NCBI RefSeq assembly: GCF_023721795.1
Contig: NZ_JAMQYE010000002.1
Location: 62,001-126,000 of the forward strand
Direction of reading: 5' to 3'
DNA: 64,000 bases
DNA from: Zeimonas sediminis
Lineage (GTDB): Bacteria > Pseudomonadota > Gammaproteobacteria > Burkholderiales > Burkholderiaceae_E
Shown: one piece after another, positions 17,443 to 49,547 of the stretch
Layout of the letters: each line of letters begins with the position of its first letter
How positions within the stretch are numbered: position 1 is the stretch's first letter
The notes under the pieces: generated by a model
Told to the model about the DNA's origin: nothing
Database searches by the model: none
What the model saw: the letters and a program-made list of their open reading frames with translations, nothing else
Program-made: the position numbers and the translations under genes

Positions 17443-18306
17443 ATGACCGCCAGAATCCTCGATGGCACCGCCCTGTCCCGCACGATCCGCGCCGAGGTCG
17501 CCGAGCGCGCCGCCGCGCTCACCGCCCGCGGCACCCGCCCGGGGCTCGCGGTGATCCTCGTCGGCGACTCGCCTGCCTCGGCCGTCTACGTGCGCAACAA
17601 GATCCGCGCGTGCACCGAGGCCGACATCCACTCCGTGTTCGATCACCTGCCCGCCGACACGACCGAGGCCGCCCTGCTGGCGCGGATCCGCGAGCTGAAC
17701 GCGGATCCGGCGGTGCACGGCATCCTGGTGCAACTGCCGCTGCCGCCGCACATCGACGAGCGCCTGGTCATCGAGGCGATCTCGCCGGCCAAGGACGTCG
17801 ACGGCTTCCACCTGCACAACGCGGGAGCGCTGCTGACCGGCTCGCCGCTGTTCCGCCCCTGCACGCCCTACGGCGTGATGAAGCTGCTCGAGCACGCGGG
17901 CGCGCAGCTCGACGGCGCGGAGGCCGTGATCGTGGGCCGCAGCAACATCGTCGGCAAGCCGCAGGCGCTGATGCTGATGCAGGAAGGCGCCACCGTCACG
18001 ATCTGCCACAGCCGCACCCGCGACCTCGCCTTCCACACCCGCCGCGCCGACATCCTGGTGGCGGCGGTGGGCCGGCCGAAGATGATCACCGGCGACATGA
18101 TCAAGCCGGGCGCGATCGTGATCGACGTCGGCATCAACCGGATCGAGGAAGGGCCCGACGCGGGCAAGCTGTGCGGGGACGTGGACTTCGCTTCGGCGGT
18201 CGAGGTGGCCGGGGCGATCACGCCGGTGCCGGGGGGCGTGGGGCCGATGACGATCGCGATGCTGCTCGTGAACACGGTGGAGGCGGCGCGGCGCTTCGCG
18301 GGCTGA
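17443..18306 (+). CDS. folD: Bifunctional methylene-THF dehydrogenase/cyclohydrolase FolD
   Basis: A 287-residue cytosolic enzyme that interconverts 5,10-methylene-THF and 10-formyl-THF using NADP. The signature [20 protein letters not shown] contains the catalytic Lys in [18 protein letters not shown] and KDVDGFH follow, then the Rossmann motif GRSNIVGKP and the C-terminal signature [14 protein letters not shown]. The start is ATG 17443, with GGAG at 17431-17434, rather than an upstream in-frame ATG at 17380. Confidence 0.96.
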
Positions 18307-18310
18307 CCGG

Positions 18311-18605
18311 CGGGCGGCGCTTCGCGGTCTTGACCTGCGATCGGGTTGCGCGGGCGGACGGAGGAGGCCAGATCCTCGCGCGCGGACGCGCTGTCCTCGC
18401 GGAAACGCTCGGTCGCGCTACGCCGAGCCCGGACCGTCGACCCCAACTCACCGGCCCTGCGGGCCGGCTCGGACAGGGGTCGACTTGCGCTTCGCGCATC
18501 CGGTCTCGGCGGCGCTCTCTCGCCAGCGCCCACGCGCGCGAGGATCTGGCCTCTCCCGTCCGCCTCGATGCGTTGCGGCGGGCCAAGACCGCGAAGCGCC
18601 GCCCG
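18311..18605. repeat. Long intergenic hairpin element (copy 1)
   Basis: The 436-base spacer between folD and the oligopeptidase gene is dominated by this nested inverted repeat. Perfect 22-base outer arms (18311-18332 with 18584-18605) are followed by a perfect 21-base second pair (18364-18384 with 18533-18553). A 9-base inner stem (18436-18444 with 18476-18484) encloses the hairpin CCGGCCC-TGC-GGGCCGG. The central 43 bases (18439-18481) match the cores of the two elements between mog and relA at about 74% identity, with changes that preserve pairing. No protein gene is supported here. Bases 18606-18742 hold only the oligopeptidase leader. Confidence 0.8.
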
Positions 18606-18742
18606 ACGGTCCGCCGCAGGGGCTTGAGAGCTTGCCGCGCCGTCCCGACGTAAGCTTTCGAACCATCACGAGCCTCAACCTTCTCACCCGCGCGGCTCAC
18701 GCCGAGTCCGTGCCGCGCACACCGACTCACGAACGACCGACC

Positions 18743-20935
18743 ATGACCGACACGACCACCAAGCCTGCCGTAACGACGAGCGCTGCCGACTCGCAAACCG
18801 CCTCCGACAACCCGCTGCTCGACTTCTCCGGGCTGCCGCGCTTCTCGGCCTTCGATCCGAAGCATGTCGGCCCTGCGCTCGACGTGCTGATCGCGCAGGC
18901 GCGCGAGGCGCTGGAGAAGGTCACGCAGGACGCGGTGCCGCTCACCTGGGACGAGTTCGTCGAGCCGCTGGACGACGCGACCGAGCGGCTCGGGCGCGCT
19001 TGGGGCATCGTCGGGCACCTGAATTCGGTCGCCGATTCGCCGGCGCTGCGCGAGGCCTTCAACGCGAACCTGCCGCGGATCACGCAGTTCTGGACCGAGC
19101 TGTCGCAGCACGAGGGGCTGTTCGCGCGCTACAAGGCCTTCGCGGCGCAGCCCGCCTTCGCCGCGCTCTCCGCGCCGCGCCGGCGCACCGTGGAGAACGC
19201 GCTGCGCGACTTCCGGCTCGGCGGCGCCGAGCTGAAGTCGCCGGCGCGCGAGCGCTTCGCCGAGATCCAGGACCGCCACGCCGCGCTGTCGCAGCGCTTC
19301 TCCGAGAACGTGCTCGACGCCACGAACGCCTTCGCGCTGTACGTGGACGACGAGGCCCGGCTCGACGGACTGCACGCCGACGCGATCGAGGCCGCCCGCG
19401 AGGCCGCGCAGGCCGACGGCCGCGAGGGCTGGAAGTTCACGCTGCAGTTCCCGTCCTACCTGCCGGTCATGCAGTACGCGAACGACCGCGCGCTTCGCGA
19501 GGCGATGTACCGCGCCTACTCGACCCGCGCGTCGGCCGAGGCGGTCGCGCCCGAGGATGCCGGCAAGCGCAACGCGCTGGACAACGCGCCGGTGATCGAC
19601 GAGCTGCTGGCCCTGCGCCGCGAGGAGGCCGGGCTGCTCGGCTACCGCAACTACGCCGAGGTGTCGCTGGTGCCGAAGATGGCCGAGTCTCCGGAACAGG
19701 TCGCCGGCTTCCTGCGCGACCTGGCCGCCCGCGCCCGGCCCTTCGCCGAGCGCGACCTGAAGGAGCTGCGCGAGTTCGCGGCCGCCGAGCTGGGGCTGGC
19801 CGAGCTCGCCCCCTGGGACATGGCCTGGGCCAGCGAAAGGCTCAAGGAGGCCCGCTATTCGTTTTCCGACCAGCAGGTCAAGCAGTACTTCCAGCTGCCG
19901 CGGGTGCTCGACGGGCTGTTCGGCCTGGTCGGCCGGATGTTCTCGGTGTCGATCCGGCCCGACCAGACCGAGGTCTGGCATCCCGACGTGCGCTTCTTCC
20001 GGATCGAGCGCGACGGCGAACTGGTCGGCCAGTTCTGGCTCGACCTGTACGCGCGCGCCTCGAAGCGCCCCGGCGCCTGGATGGACGACGCGCGCGGCCG
20101 CCGGCGGCACGCCGGCTCGCTGCAGACGCCGGCCGCCTACCTGGTCTGCAACTTCCAGCCGCCGGTCGGCAAGCGCCCCGCGCTGCTGACCCACGACGAC
20201 GTGACCACACTGTTCCACGAGTTCGGCCACGGCTTGCACCACCTGCTGACCCGGATCGAGGACGCGGGCGTGTCGGGCATCTCCGGCGTCGAGTGGGACG
20301 CGGTCGAGCTGCCCAGCCAGTTCATGGAGAACTTCTGCTGGGAGTGGGACAACGTGCGCGCGATGACCGCCCACGTCGACACCGGCGAGCCGCTGCCGCG
20401 CGAGCTCTTCGACCGGATGCTGGCGGCGCGGAACTTCCAGAGCGGCATGCAGACGCTGCGCCAGATCGAGTTCTCGCTGTTCGACATGCGGCTGCACGCC
20501 GAGTACGACCCGGCCGCGCCGGGCACATCGGCAGGCGGCGAGGCGCCCGCGCCCGGCGCAGCCGTGCAGGCCCTGCTCGACGAGGTGCGCCGAGAGGTGG
20601 CGGTGGTGATCCCGCCGGCCTGGAACCGCTTCCAGAACAGCTTCTCGCACATCTTCGCAGGCGGCTACTCGGCCGGCTACTACAGCTACAAGTGGGCCGA
20701 GGTGCTGTCGGCCGACGCCTACGCTGCCTTCGAGGAGGCGATGGCGATGCCGGATCCGGCCGCGGCGGTAGCCGAGACCGGCCGCCGTTTCCTGGCCGAG
20801 ATCCTGTCGGTGGGCGGCAGCCGACCGGCCATCGACTCTTTCCGCGCGTTCAGGGGGCGCGACCCGCAGATCGACGCGCTGCTGCGCCACAATGGAATGG
20901 TCGAGGCCTCCGACCTGGAACCCTCCCATGCCTGA
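18743..20935 (+). CDS. prlC: Oligopeptidase A, M3 family metallopeptidase
   Basis: A 730-residue cytoplasmic zinc oligopeptidase that degrades signal-peptide fragments and short peptides. The zinc site HEFGH lies in TLFHEFGHGLHHLL near residue 492, and the downstream Glu region is VEWDAVELPSQFMEN. The C-terminal substrate loop is FSHIFAGGYSAGYYSYKWAE. The start ATG 18743 gives the normal length; the open frame upstream runs through the hairpin element and is rejected. The end overlaps the next gene by 8 bases. Confidence 0.94.
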   Translation: MTDTTTKPAVTTSAADSQTASDNPLLDFSGLPRFSAFDPKHVGPALDVLIAQAREALEKVTQDAVPLTWDEFVEPLDDATERLGRAWGIVGHLNSVADSPALREAFNANLPRITQFWTELSQHEGLFARYKAFAAQPAFAALSAPRRRTVENALRDFRLGGAELKSPARERFAEIQDRHAALSQRFSENVLDATNAFALYVDDEARLDGLHADAIEAAREAAQADGREGWKFTLQFPSYLPVMQYANDRALREAMYRAYSTRASAEAVAPEDAGKRNALDNAPVIDELLALRREEAGLLGYRNYAEVSLVPKMAESPEQVAGFLRDLAARARPFAERDLKELREFAAAELGLAELAPWDMAWASERLKEARYSFSDQQVKQYFQLPRVLDGLFGLVGRMFSVSIRPDQTEVWHPDVRFFRIERDGELVGQFWLDLYARASKRPGAWMDDARGRRRHAGSLQTPAAYLVCNFQPPVGKRPALLTHDDVTTLFHEFGHGLHHLLTRIEDAGVSGISGVEWDAVELPSQFMENFCWEWDNVRAMTAHVDTGEPLPRELFDRMLAARNFQSGMQTLRQIEFSLFDMRLHAEYDPAAPGTSAGGEAPAPGAAVQALLDEVRREVAVVIPPAWNRFQNSFSHIFAGGYSAGYYSYKWAEVLSADAYAAFEEAMAMPDPAAAVAETGRRFLAEILSVGGSRPAIDSFRAFRGRDPQIDALLRHNGMVEASDLEPSHA

Positions 20936-45972: not shown

Positions 45973-46553
45973 GCACGAACACGATCCGCATCGGGCTGGT
46001 CTCCGTCAGCGACCGGGCCTCGCAGGGCGTCTACCAGGACCAGGGGATCCCCGGCCTGCAGCAGTGGCTCGGCGAGGCGCTCGCCAGCCCCTGGGAAGCC
46101 GTGGTGCGGCTGATCCCCGACGATCGCCCGACGATCGAGTACACGCTGATCGAGCTGGTCGACCGCGAAGGCTGCAACCTGGTGCTGACCACCGGCGGCA
46201 CCGGCCCGGCCCCGCGCGACGTGACCCCGGAGGCCACGCTGGCGATCGGCGACCGCGAGATGCCGGGCTTCGGCGAACAGATGCGCCAGATCAGCCTGAA
46301 CTTCGTGCCCACCGCGATCCTGTCGCGGCAGGTGGCCGTTATCCGCGGCAAGGCGCTGATCGTGAACCTGCCAGGCCAGCCCAAGTCGATCCGCGAGACG
46401 CTCGAGGGGCTGAAGGACGAGGACGGCAGGCAGAAGGTGCACGGGATCTTCGCGGCGGTGCCCTATTGCCTGGACCTGATCGGGGCGCCGTACGTGGAGA
46501 CCAACGAAGCCGTATGCAAGGCCTTCCGGCCGAAGTCGGCGAAGCGGGGCTGA
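45969..46553 (+). CDS. mog: Molybdopterin adenylyltransferase Mog
   Basis: A 194-residue MoCF-fold protein that adenylylates molybdopterin before molybdenum insertion. SVSDRASQGVYQDQGIPGL begins it, and the substrate motif TTGGTGPAPRDVTPEAT is intact. GLPGQPKS-like text (NLPGQPKSIRE) follows. The Mog-type rather than MoaB-type length fits. It is coupled to darP through ATGA. Confidence 0.93.
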   Translation: MSTNTIRIGLVSVSDRASQGVYQDQGIPGLQQWLGEALASPWEAVVRLIPDDRPTIEYTLIELVDREGCNLVLTTGGTGPAPRDVTPEATLAIGDREMPGFGEQMRQISLNFVPTAILSRQVAVIRGKALIVNLPGQPKSIRETLEGLKDEDGRQKVHGIFAAVPYCLDLIGAPYVETNEAVCKAFRPKSAKRG

Positions 46554-46577
46554 ACTCGCTCGCTTGGTCGTTCGCCC

Positions 46578-46787
46578 GGCGGCGCGGGCGGGGGCTTCCC
46601 TCGGGGCGCTGAGGCTGCGGCCCCGCCTGCGGCGGGGCTTCCCTCGCCTTCCTCGTCACCGGCGGGTCGGAGCTCAACTCGCGACCCCTGCGGGCTCGCT
46701 CAGACAGAGCTCCTCCCTTTTCGCCGGTTCCTTCGGAAGCGCTCGGCTTGCCAACGCGCCCCGAGGGAAGCCCCCGCCCGCGCCGCC
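46578..46787. repeat. Long intergenic hairpin element (copy 2)
   Basis: A perfect 31-base inverted repeat (46578-46608 with 46757-46787) encloses a core module with a further stem GGAGCTC (46669-46675)/GAGCTCC (46707-46713). The module 46634-46748 recurs, inverted, in copy 3 as blocks of 24, 20, 19 and 19 identical bases. The 639-base spacer between convergent mog and relA (46554-47192) holds no supported gene, only these elements and a short tandem repeat. Confidence 0.85.
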
Positions 46788-46850
46788 TGGATGTCGGGGC
46801 ATGCGCAGCGAGTCCAGCCCCGCTTCGCCGACTTCGGCGCTCACGGCGCC

Positions 46851-46874
46851 GGGGTGTCGGGGTGTCGGGGTGTC
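46851..46874 (+). repeat. Three tandem copies of an 8-base unit
   Basis: GGGGTGTC occurs three times head to tail between the two hairpin elements. It is too short and too regular to be a CRISPR, and is a candidate site for length variation. Confidence 0.7.
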
Positions 46875-46970: not shown

Positions 46971-47158
46971 AGCGGAGCGACCCGCGGGCGCCTGTGCCAG
47001 CCGAGCGCTTCCGAAGGGAGCGGCGATCAGGGAGGAGCTCTGTCTGAGGCTCGCCTTCGGCGAGCCGAGTTGAGCTCCGACCCGCCGCGGACGAGGAAGG
47101 CGAGGGAAGCCCCCGCGCAGCGGGGGCCGCAGCACCGGCGCCCGCGGGTCGCTCCGCT
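46971..47158. repeat. Long intergenic hairpin element (copy 3, inverted)
   Basis: Perfect 22-base arms (46971-46992 with 47137-47158), extended imperfectly outward, enclose the same core as copy 2 in opposite orientation. Its 43-base centre (47035-47077) keeps the GAGCTC ends, AACTC and GACAG blocks, but has a different inner hairpin (GCTCGCC-GAAG-GGCGAGC, read on the minus strand). The outer arms differ in sequence from those of copy 2. Confidence 0.85.
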
Positions 47159-47192: not shown

Positions 47193-49547
47193 TCAGGCCC
47201 GCCGAACCGAAGTGACCCCCGGCACCGCGCGCACCGCGGCGAGCGTCGCCTGCAGCTGCTCGGCGTCCGTGACCTCGACGGTGAACCGCATCCGCGCCTC
47301 CTGCCGCTTTGTGGCCGTCTGCATCCCGATCACGTTGACCCGGTCGCGCGCCACGGTCTCGACGATGTCGCGCAGCAGGCCGGTGCGGTCGGCGGCCTTC
47401 ACCTCGATGTCGACCGGGTAGCGGCGGGCGCGGGCATCGCCCGGCGCGACGCGCTGCCGGCCCCACTCGGTGTCGATCACCCGGTCGGGCGAGCGGGCGG
47501 CCATCTGCGCGAAGGTGCCGCAGCCGCGCCGGTGCACCGACACGCCCCGGCCGTGCGTCACGAAGCCGACGATCGGGTCGGGCGGCACCGGCCGGCAGCA
47601 GCGCGCGAGCTGGGTCAGCAGCGAATCGATGCCGACGACCAGCACGCCATCTCCCCCGCCCCCGCTGCTGCGCCGGCGCGCGGCGATGATCGCGGCCAGG
47701 TCCGGCTCGTCGATCGCCGCGCGGGTCGGGTCGAGCGCCGGGTCGTGGCGCGCCGCCTCCTCGAGCTGGCGCGGGCCGACTTCGTCGCGGGCCACCGCCA
47801 CGAACATCGCGCCGGGGTCGGGAAAGCCCAGGCGCCTGGCCAGCTCGTCGAAGGACAGCGCGGTGCGGCCCTCGCGCTGCAGGACCTTCTCGACCTTTTC
47901 CCGCCCGGCCGCGGTGTCGCGCTCCAGCTCGCGCGCGTTGAACCACTGCCTGAGCTTGGCGCGGGTGCGCTGGCTCTTCACGTAGCCTAGCTGCGGGTTC
48001 AGCCAGTCGAGCGACGGGCCCTCGTGCCCGGTGTCCTTGGCCGCGACGATCTCGACCGTCTGGCCGTTCTGCAGCGGCGTGTTCAGCGGCACCATGTGGC
48101 CGTCGACCTTCGCGCCGCGGCAGCGATGGCCCAGGCTGGTGTGCACCTGGTAGGCGAAATCGACCGGCGTGGCGCCGGCGGGCAGTTCGATCACCCGCGC
48201 CTGCGGGGTCAGCACGTAGATGCGCTCCTCGTCGGCGGTGGCGCGAGCGCCTTCGGCCGCGGGGCCGGCCTCGCTTCCGGCAACGGCGGCCGCGGCCGCC
48301 CCCGCCATCGGCCCCGCCCCCGGCACCGCCGCGCCGCCCAGCGCCTCGCCGACCTCGCGCTGCCACGCGAGCAGCTGGCGCATCCACGCGATCCGGTCCT
48401 CGTAGGCCTGGTCGCTCCGGGCGCCCGCGCCTGCGGCGCCGCTCGCCCGCTCCTTGTAGCGCCAGTGCGAGGCCACGCCGTACTCGGCGAAGCGGTGCAT
48501 CGCCTCGGTGCGGATCTGCACCTCGAGCGGCCGGCCGTCTTCGGCGGTCACCACCGTGTGCAGCGACTGGTAGCCGTTCGGCTTGGGCCGCGCGATGTAG
48601 TCGTCGTATTCCTCCGGGATCGCCCGCCACATCGAGTGCACCACGTCGAGCGCCGCGTAGCACTGCGCCACGGTGTCGACGATCACGCGCAGCCCGCGCA
48701 GGTCGGAGATGCCCTCCAGCCCACGGCTCTTGGCGCGCATCTTGTTCCAGATGCTGAAGATGTGCTTGGGCCGCCCGCTGACCTCGGCCTTCAGCCCGGC
48801 CTCGGCCAGCCTCGCGCGCAGGCGCTGCGTGGCGTCGGCCACGTAGGCCTCGCGCTCGACCCGCTTCTCCTCGAGCGCCCGCGCCAGCGACTTGTAGGCC
48901 TCGGGCTGCAGGAAGCGGAAGGCCAGGTCCTCGAGCTCCCACTTCAGCTGCCACAGGCCGATCCGGTTGGCCAGCGGCGCGAGCACCTCGAGCGTCTCGC
49001 GGCTTACCGGCTCGTCGGGATCGCGCCTGACCGCCGCGTGGTAGCGCAGCGTCTGCAGCCGGGAGGCCAGCCGCAGCAGCACGACCCGGATGTCGGTCGC
49101 CATCGCCAGCAGCATCCGGCGCAGCGTCTCGGTCTGGGCGCCGGCGTCCTCGCCCTCGGGCCTTCGCAGCGCGCGCAGCCGGCGCACCTGGCGCATCGCG
49201 TCGACCAGCCGGCCGACCTCGGGCCCGAACTCGCGGTCGACCGCCTCGCGCGGCAGCAGCGTGGCCGGCTCGACCAGCGCGGCGGCCAGTTGCGTGGCCT
49301 CGTCCGCGCCGATCGCGTGCAGGATCGCGATCGTGCCGCGCGCGTGGGCGAGGTAGCCTTCGCCGTTCGGCGCCGCGGTCTCGCCGACCGCGTCGGCGGC
49401 CAGCGCGAGCGCGCGCTCGATCCGTTCGTTGCCGGTTTCGTGCGCGTCTGTCTCGCGCGCGCCCGAGGTCCCGCGAGTGGCGGCCTCGGGTGCGTTCGGT
49501 GTCCCGCACGCGTGCCCGGCGTCGATGGTAGGCTTCGGCTCGCTCAT
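47193..49547 (-). CDS. relA: GTP pyrophosphokinase RelA
   Basis: 784 residues. The N-terminal HD-like region lacks the catalytic HDxxED (ATQLAAALVEPATLLP is found there), so hydrolysis is not expected. The synthetase domain has ISDLRGLRVIVDTVAQCY and EYDDYIARPKPNGYQSLHT; the acidic EYDD form is that of monofunctional RelA. TGS (YVLTPQARVIELPAGATPVD), the CCRPVPPDPIVGF zinc-finger region and a C-terminal ACT domain (VEVTDAEQLQATL) follow. An Ala-rich insertion of about 30 residues lies between the synthetase and TGS. It answers uncharged tRNA on ribosomes. Confidence 0.95.
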   Translation of the reverse strand: MSEPKPTIDAGHACGTPNAPEAATRGTSGARETDAHETGNERIERALALAADAVGETAAPNGEGYLAHARGTIAILHAIGADEATQLAAALVEPATLLPREAVDREFGPEVGRLVDAMRQVRRLRALRRPEGEDAGAQTETLRRMLLAMATDIRVVLLRLASRLQTLRYHAAVRRDPDEPVSRETLEVLAPLANRIGLWQLKWELEDLAFRFLQPEAYKSLARALEEKRVEREAYVADATQRLRARLAEAGLKAEVSGRPKHIFSIWNKMRAKSRGLEGISDLRGLRVIVDTVAQCYAALDVVHSMWRAIPEEYDDYIARPKPNGYQSLHTVVTAEDGRPLEVQIRTEAMHRFAEYGVASHWRYKERASGAAGAGARSDQAYEDRIAWMRQLLAWQREVGEALGGAAVPGAGPMAGAAAAAVAGSEAGPAAEGARATADEERIYVLTPQARVIELPAGATPVDFAYQVHTSLGHRCRGAKVDGHMVPLNTPLQNGQTVEIVAAKDTGHEGPSLDWLNPQLGYVKSQRTRAKLRQWFNARELERDTAAGREKVEKVLQREGRTALSFDELARRLGFPDPGAMFVAVARDEVGPRQLEEAARHDPALDPTRAAIDEPDLAAIIAARRRSSGGGGDGVLVVGIDSLLTQLARCCRPVPPDPIVGFVTHGRGVSVHRRGCGTFAQMAARSPDRVIDTEWGRQRVAPGDARARRYPVDIEVKAADRTGLLRDIVETVARDRVNVIGMQTATKRQEARMRFTVEVTDAEQLQATLAAVRAVPGVTSVRRA

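Follow-up and report, generated by a model that had tools for sequence, protein, structure and literature searches.

A family of folded repeats behind genes in Zeimonas, with a covarying core and arms that may be copied from one another

Several kinds of bacterial palindrome can be compared with the element described here. A REP sequence is a short hairpin with a GTAG/GGAG-type tetranucleotide, and REPs are recognised by RAYT enzymes. BIMEs are bound by proteins of the gyrase/IHF type. The attC sites of integrons carry RYYYAAC...GTTRRRY at the ends of the palindrome.

Like the present family, REP/BIME sequences form many extragenic palindromic repeats in alternating orientation, as the cited part of PMC2817692 describes. 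ERIC/IRU, NEMIS, RUP and other MITEs are likewise small and non-autonomous; they lie between genes, and their transcripts form long stem-loops. The sections of PMC2229807 used here give bacterial MITEs a length of about 100-200 bp and short terminal inverted repeats, many with TA ends, and report effects of ERIC on mRNA stability. BRE of Bordetella is likewise GC-rich and mostly intergenic; in the cited portion of PMC3110155 it occurs in several Burkholderiales genera and overlaps a detected small RNA. Another comparison concerns the way in which palindromes change. Template switching has been proposed for RNA stems (PMC8794818) and considered for the mitochondrial palindromes of nematomorphs (PMC6649704), and the cited excerpts of both describe, as found here, multi-base compensatory changes and arms that evolve in concert.

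The window, that is, the whole stretch of DNA that was analysed, comprises 64,000 nucleotides of Zeimonas sediminis (assembly GCF_023721795.1, contig NZ_JAMQYE010000002.1, positions 62,001 to 126,000 of the forward strand); its own genome is called G000 below. Among the genes discussed, NCBIfam models identify FolD, molybdopterin adenylyltransferase (Mog) and a RelA/SpoT family protein, while for prlC the top model is oligopeptidase A/PrlC with a score under its curated cut-off. An inverted-repeat scan finds an imperfect palindrome of about 315 nt in the folD-prlC spacer, at 18301-18615. Its folding energy with DNA parameters is -144.8 kcal/mol, against a mean of -93.8 for shuffled sequences (z -12.4, reached by 0/100 shuffles).

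The palindrome, read on the + strand, is built in layers. The outermost 5' arm (18301-18338) starts in the last folD codons, includes the folD stop, which ends at 18306, and is 89% complementary to the outermost 3' arm at 18578-18615. Inside it, the inner 5' arm (18353-18393) has a locus-specific sequence, unlike that of the Z. arvi orthologue, and is 88% complementary to the inner 3' arm at 18524-18564. A junction motif, TCGATGCGTTG, occupies 18565-18575 on the 3' side. The centre of the palindrome is a conserved core of the type called subfamily A (18388-18529; match to covariance model R1, 9.3e-21). A pattern scan of 18200-18760 for a U-tract terminator, a GC stem followed by a T-run, returned 0 matches.

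A previous sequence-only reading had placed the core at 18439-18481 and compared it with 46670-46712. Its description is accurate. Both segments are 43 nt long and identical at 32/43 positions, the changed stems still pair (GACCCC/GGGGTC against GAGCTC/GAGCTC), the inner hairpin CCGGCCC-TGC-GGGCCGG is as given, and the AACTC and GACAG blocks are constant. With itself and 46670 set aside, the next-best match of the 43-mer in the window reaches 26/43; there are two such matches, one of which, at 47035 (-), lies inside a third copy. The extent has to be corrected, since the 43-mer is the apical module of a longer core, consisting of a stem, AACTC, a hairpin, CTCGGACAG and the closing strand of the stem. 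Homology of this module can be established without relying on the 43-mer: model R2, made from B/D copies only, matches 18430-18494 with E = 0.001.

The element had been described as the third member of a hairpin family. This is far too small a number, as the genome holds at least 40 copies. Searching it with the whole folD element gives 13 rows; two are self-matches, one per strand, which leaves 11 other places. The element at 46.6 kb gives 22 rows, itself included; a family of three copies is ruled out by these searches. In the regions fetched, 69 elements were mapped: 40 in G000, of which one has an internal deletion, 18 in G007 and 11 in G004. Copy counts are lower bounds, because the genome searches scored a limited number of candidates in each genome and because some draft contigs stop inside elements. 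Draft contigs that start or stop in or beside an element were seen at G008:C37:6, G008:C3:1, G006:C62:1 and G003:C258:4840. The palindromes thus seem to break assemblies, and copy counts from drafts are too low.

A second site in the window, between mog and relA/spoT, holds two elements facing each other. The first folds much more stably than its shuffles: 46525-46842 has z -11.3, with 0/100 shuffles reaching it. Its outermost 5' arm (46529-46560, +) covers the last mog codons, with the mog stop ending at 46553 inside it, and is 97% complementary to the outermost 3' arm (46807-46838, +). The latter is an inverted copy of the mog end, and a probe made from that end also matches the 46807-46838 region over 24 nt at 100%. 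The core of this + member, of subfamily B, lies at 46614-46752. The convergent member, also of subfamily B, has its core at 46996-47133 (-), behind relA/spoT (47193-49547, -). In the spacer of the pair, GGGGTGTC stands in three tandem copies at 46851-46874.

The same site was followed in relatives. With model R3, a convergent pair as in the window is found in G007, G008, G004 and G001, and the pairs that R3 recognises in G008 and G004 are of subfamily C. No R3 match with E up to 1 was obtained at the mog-relA sites of G014, G003, G002, G005, G010, G017, G011 and G015, where R1 gives chance-level scores only.

The position of the elements relative to genes was judged from the codon-usage gene calls of this analysis. 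A gene on the same strand lies upstream in 62/69 elements, and 0/69 stand in divergent gaps. In those 62 the core begins 43-136 nt past the stop codon in G000 and G007; in G004 this distance is 99-210 nt. Where a single copy stands between co-directional genes in the Zeimonas group, it has the sense orientation in 11/11 cases (nine independent loci). Outside the genus, 46 matches were placed, from which six duplicates were dropped and of which 18/40 have unresolved contexts; there, five lone copies between co-directional genes are sense and one is antisense, and one further copy lies in a gap called divergent.

Neighbouring elements face each other. All 23/23 neighbouring pairs in G000, G007 and G004 are convergent. 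Of these, 7/23 stand between co-directional genes; the antisense member of such a pair has no gene end to stand behind, which counts against a role at 3' ends. Among the class matches listed (131 elements), pairs up to 700 nt apart are convergent in 11/11 cases, one of them an overlapping double match that may be a single hairpin read on both strands. Among the order matches listed (134 rows outside the genus), the figure is 6/7; the divergent pair G371:C1:463422-463919 is the sole exception among the counted pairs. In Variovorax paradoxus, a convergent pair stands between two annotated convergent genes. Comparison by eye gives no common sequence in the spacers of paired elements. The spacer of one G004 pair (L194) is a short frame that, translated by eye, reads MHRRCLGFDEEQVLVVDAGDAWH. 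The G013 orthologue, L147, has part of it, and the frame may be what is left of a coding sequence.

The family extends well beyond the window. An exact-pattern scan of named genomes finds subfamily A in 21 stretches, all from Zeimonas arvi or from MAGs labelled Burkholderiaceae, Lautropia or Limnobacter. The subfamilies are modular. For instance, the apical module AACTC-hairpin-CAGACA is common to A and B/D, and peripheral modules are common to B and C. Model R1, made from 42 distinct subfamily A cores of 45 found, is positive in 10/74 genomes of the family, all in the Zeimonas genus. R2, made from 21/21 mapped B/D copies, gives weak full-length matches in other families, in 11/300 genomes, two of which belong to the Zeimonas genus. 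R3, made from 22 matches of which ten are distant, finds its fold in 102/399 genomes of the order (53/159 genera) and in 41/369 genomes of the class (34/272 genera); its E-values are rough, yet false matches would hardly be expected to show such a convergent arrangement.

Known families and carriers were also considered. At the Rfam 15 cut-off the window yields two tRNAs only, and a permissive search of 18250-18700 and eight distant loci gives only miRNA and frameshift matches far below cut-off. With no Rfam match beyond tRNA at the gathering score in the stretches searched, a known RNA family was rejected for them. Carriage by phage was rejected, as the exact pattern has no match among viral contigs and a Variovorax copy has none in phage records. 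Carriage of subfamily A by plasmids was likewise rejected; one distant member does occur in Variovorax on a replicon that is catalogued as a plasmid. Keyword searches of the openly readable literature did not find the element described. These are apparently undescribed, widespread folded repeats behind bacterial genes.

The sequence-only reading had proposed that the structure of the element is under selection. Four alignments of the core bear on this proposal: A1 (subfamily A, 42 rows), A2 (B/D, 21 rows), A4 (22 rows) and A5 (40 distinct rows). Both sides have changed in 18/38, 18/37, 34/37 and 29/37 pairs, respectively, with covariation scores of 0.336, 0.387, 0.570 and 0.444; A4 and A5, whose rows were aligned with the model fold as guide, lean towards the model, which A1 and A2 do not, and kinship among the rows inflates all these counts, so that the signal is strong as a figure uncorrected for phylogeny. 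In each alignment 0/500 shuffles reach the covariation score, and a control in which pairing partners are slid gives at most 0.094. The number of pairs changed on both sides is matched by 3, 1, 0 and 0 of 500 shuffles for A1, A2, A4 and A5. For pair types the corresponding shuffle counts are 499, 86, 0 and 15, so that A1 and A5 do not exceed their shuffles in this respect; both of these lesser measures are weak in subfamily A. On these larger alignments, covariation in the core thus stands above background as given by shuffles and by partner sliding.

Wobble pairs provide information about the strand on which the core folds. In the core of A5 there are 83 G-T against 10 A-C cells, or 83 against 29 with column 89-130, a false pair column in which the model mispairs an unpaired block and which supplies 19 of the 29 A-C cells. 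The counts are 49 against 7 in A2 and 29 against 14 in A1. Single columns hold G-T in 31, 29, 24, 17 and 15 sequences, the first two out of 40, and A-C in at most 3 outside the false column. When each column is counted once, G-T stands against A-C at 10 to 8 in A5, 6 to 4 in A2 and 5 to 9 in A1. The excess then vanishes, so the strand argument rests on the persistence of G-T pairs. The previous suggestion had been either a functional RNA or a protein-recognised DNA cruciform, and of these two the wobble pattern favours a sense single strand. The core is probably a sense-strand RNA fold.

One alternative is that the elements are DNA sites between convergent genes, acting as a cruciform or as a site whose binding by a nucleoid or topology protein of the gyrase/IHF type depends on supercoiling. 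Convergent pairing and palindromy would suit such a site, as would the arm mismatches given below, which are strand-symmetric. The wobble pairs of the core are not, however, and lone copies keep their sense orientation, which together make a DNA site an improbable explanation.

The arms behave differently from the core. Within the genus they have a strict length of up to 205 nt, mostly about 30-200 bp. They are near-perfect in G004, with 1362 Watson-Crick pairs against about 35 mismatches in 11 elements, and less perfect in G000 and G007; in the window element, 69/84 positions pair. Outside the genus, closure is mostly by a few base pairs (CCC(C)/GGG(G)), and long arms occur in 3/44 copies, a count that leaves out L364, whose match lies at a contig end. 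Also outside the genus, a loose pattern places a CTTT...AAAG hairpin (e.g. CACTTTCTTTGCTTCGCCAAAGAAAGTAAGCAAAGAAAGGCGACCCC) at most 90 nt upstream of the core in 33/44 copies; the loci in this survey were L324-L332, L338-L361, L365 and L366.

In five orthologous pairs, arms reach similarity z values of 1.8-13.1, against 18-34 for gene end and core. The sequence past the 3' arm has diverged as well (z 4.8-18.7); the arms are less similar than this sequence in four of the five pairs, and the fifth is mixed. Between G013 and G004, for instance, the core agrees at 151/152 positions, and the arms have z 3.5-6.0 against 27-34 for upstream CDS and core. The clearest replacement is seen between G013 and G014, whose flanks are 98.1% and 96.6% identical over about 1.35 kb each. 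Their cores differ by one base, the inner arm ends are identical and the outer ends nearly so, but the middles of both arms have been swapped in step, so that 119/117 nt in one genome correspond to 27/27 nt of perfect complementarity in the other.

Such arms could in principle arise by ordinary compensatory evolution, that is, by point mutation and selection for pairing with no copying. Pairing is indeed kept in the three closely examined genomes, and the arms of G000/G007 orthologues show 92 two-sided changes, though also 75 one-sided ones. Against this stand the replacement of whole segments in step at 97-98% flank identity and the inverted copies of gene ends. Moreover, G-T mismatches are not in excess in the arms, with 77 G-T against 67 A-C in G000 and G007 together (unbiased scoring, P 0.45) and 4 against 10 in G004. 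The two-sided changes comprise 66 transversions and 26 transitions, a ratio near that of chance replacement at this base composition, so that it is weak evidence against a G-U route. Point-mutation compensation was rejected as the sole source of arm complementarity on the grounds of symmetric segment replacement and the lacking G-T excess, and an origin of the arms by this route only is unlikely. Arm-to-arm copying of DNA, or template switching, fits the outer arms better than selection on pairing does. The proposal of selection on structure is supported for the core, where covariation lies far above both controls and the loop blocks are constant, and is not supported for the outer stem, whose symmetric turnover would not require selection for pairing. 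The core looks like a sense single strand in its wobble pairs and the arms do not.

A recurrent junction motif closes off the arms. C[TC][GC]GA occurs 31-45 nt past the core in 25/40 copies of the own genome, against 1-6/40 at seven other offsets, and in 7/18 copies of G007, against 0-2 elsewhere. G004 has it at this distance in 0/11; several of its copies carry a similar motif behind much longer arms.

Comparison of relatives also reveals filled and empty sites. The G004 element L193 is absent from G008 and G013, and at its site 17 nt of the gene end recur as an inverted copy, which the empty G008 site lacks. Arms can apparently also grow by copying of the flank. Two G004 elements have 358 bp in common at 93%, arms included; G013, G014, G005 and G015 lack one of the two at the orthologous site. 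Arms in common and empty orthologous sites together suggest that elements move or are copied together with their arms. The transposed element, in L196 (-), lies between two TCA triplets that may be a 3-bp target duplication; in L195 (-), the flanks of its sister copy read TGA/CGA. No consistent target duplication appeared at the G004 elements compared. Probes for orthologous sites gave no match in L248, L249 and L273-L275.

These observations bring in the main rival explanation, in which the element is a mobile hairpin with no host function. An unknown transposase supplied in trans would read a single folded DNA strand, the convergent pair would be the transposition unit, and 3' gene ends would be merely tolerated landing sites. 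The filled and empty sites, the two similar G004 elements, the patchy distribution and the near-constant convergent pairing, even between co-directional genes, all speak for mobility, and a one-strand fold of ssDNA would equally account for the wobble in the core. On the other side are the sense orientation kept by lone copies, the lack of a consistent target duplication and the results for enzymes. Two domains were searched for. Y1_Tnp (PF01797) is found in none of G000, G007 and G004 and is present in 3/18 genus genomes; RVT_1 is found in neither G000 nor G007, and 5/18 genus genomes have one, including copy-rich G004. A reverse transcriptase or an IS200/RAYT enzyme was therefore dropped as the evident driver in the copy-rich G000 and G007, which have neither domain. 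A mobile hairpin devoid of host function is rather unlikely on balance, although mobility as an ssDNA hairpin and a role as a 3'-UTR element may both hold.

At the 3' region of argB, inspection by eye shows palindromes without a core in G005 (L272) and G002 (L269), which include the start codon of the downstream gene together with its inverted copy; the same gap holds an element in G000, G007 and G004. Such core-less residues would suit a view of the elements as a mutational by-product, namely quasipalindromes grown by replication slippage behind genes, with neither function nor mobility. However, one core fold is found repeatedly, at unrelated loci and in dozens of genera, and this explanation is very improbable.

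The family, its fold, its placement and its presence or absence between relatives can be read directly from the sequences compared. The best reading of the element is a REP/BIME-like one at 3' ends, with a function that we infer by analogy. A core of about 140 nt on the coding strand would adopt a branched fold with fixed unpaired AACTC and CAGACA/CGGACA blocks just past a stop codon, either alone in sense orientation or in a convergent pair. In the transcript it would serve as a 3'-UTR structure by which the mRNA end is set or protected, the role that REP/BIME hairpins have, and the element may spread as a non-autonomous repeat. In the Zeimonas genus, long arms would take the place of the usual short closing stem. 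One arm would be recopied from the other by hairpin-primed template switching during replication, as footprints in the sequence suggest, and the copying would sometimes run on into the end of the flanking gene. The proposed recopying would explain why the arms vary and yet stay complementary.

For this account as a whole, a 3'-end folded repeat family with template-copied arms in the Zeimonas genus, the chances appear about even. A wider version is somewhat more doubtful. It holds that an undescribed folded RNA element at 3' ends is found across the class, in beta- and gammaproteobacteria, and that its arms in the Zeimonas group are continually rewritten by replication, at such a rate that close relatives no longer resemble each other in them although the copies still fold, with pairing kept by mutation and not by selection.

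If the account is true, about one in four genomes sampled in the order contains a folded element that, according to the searches made, has neither a name nor a function. Its variant in Zeimonas would offer, as a natural experiment, an unusually clean way to tell selection from template switching in hairpin compensation, because a selected core and copied arms share one molecule and can be compared by their wobble pattern. It would also be a caution against taking covariation as proof of RNA function, and it may account for some of the draft contigs that break at elements.

The element can now be set against the known systems. Comparison with attC by eye places AAC in the apical loop and not at the ends of the palindrome. 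BRE, with its 75-91 bp and often tandem copies in the cited portion of PMC3110155, is set apart here by description only. With REP/BIME the family has the inverted grouping of extragenic palindromes in common. The core differs in being branched, about 140 nt long and of other sequence, not a short hairpin, and it is flanked by variable arms that change in concert; AACTC and CAGACA are its fixed blocks in place of the REP tetranucleotide, and G000, G007 and G004 contain no PF01797 as a RAYT gene. Unlike MITEs, the elements have locus-specific arms of up to about 200 bp around a constant core. Finally, the cases for which the excerpts of PMC8794818 and PMC6649704 discuss template switching are short RNA stems or mitochondrial coding repeats, whereas here the concerted change affects arms of up to about 200 bp in a multi-copy family.
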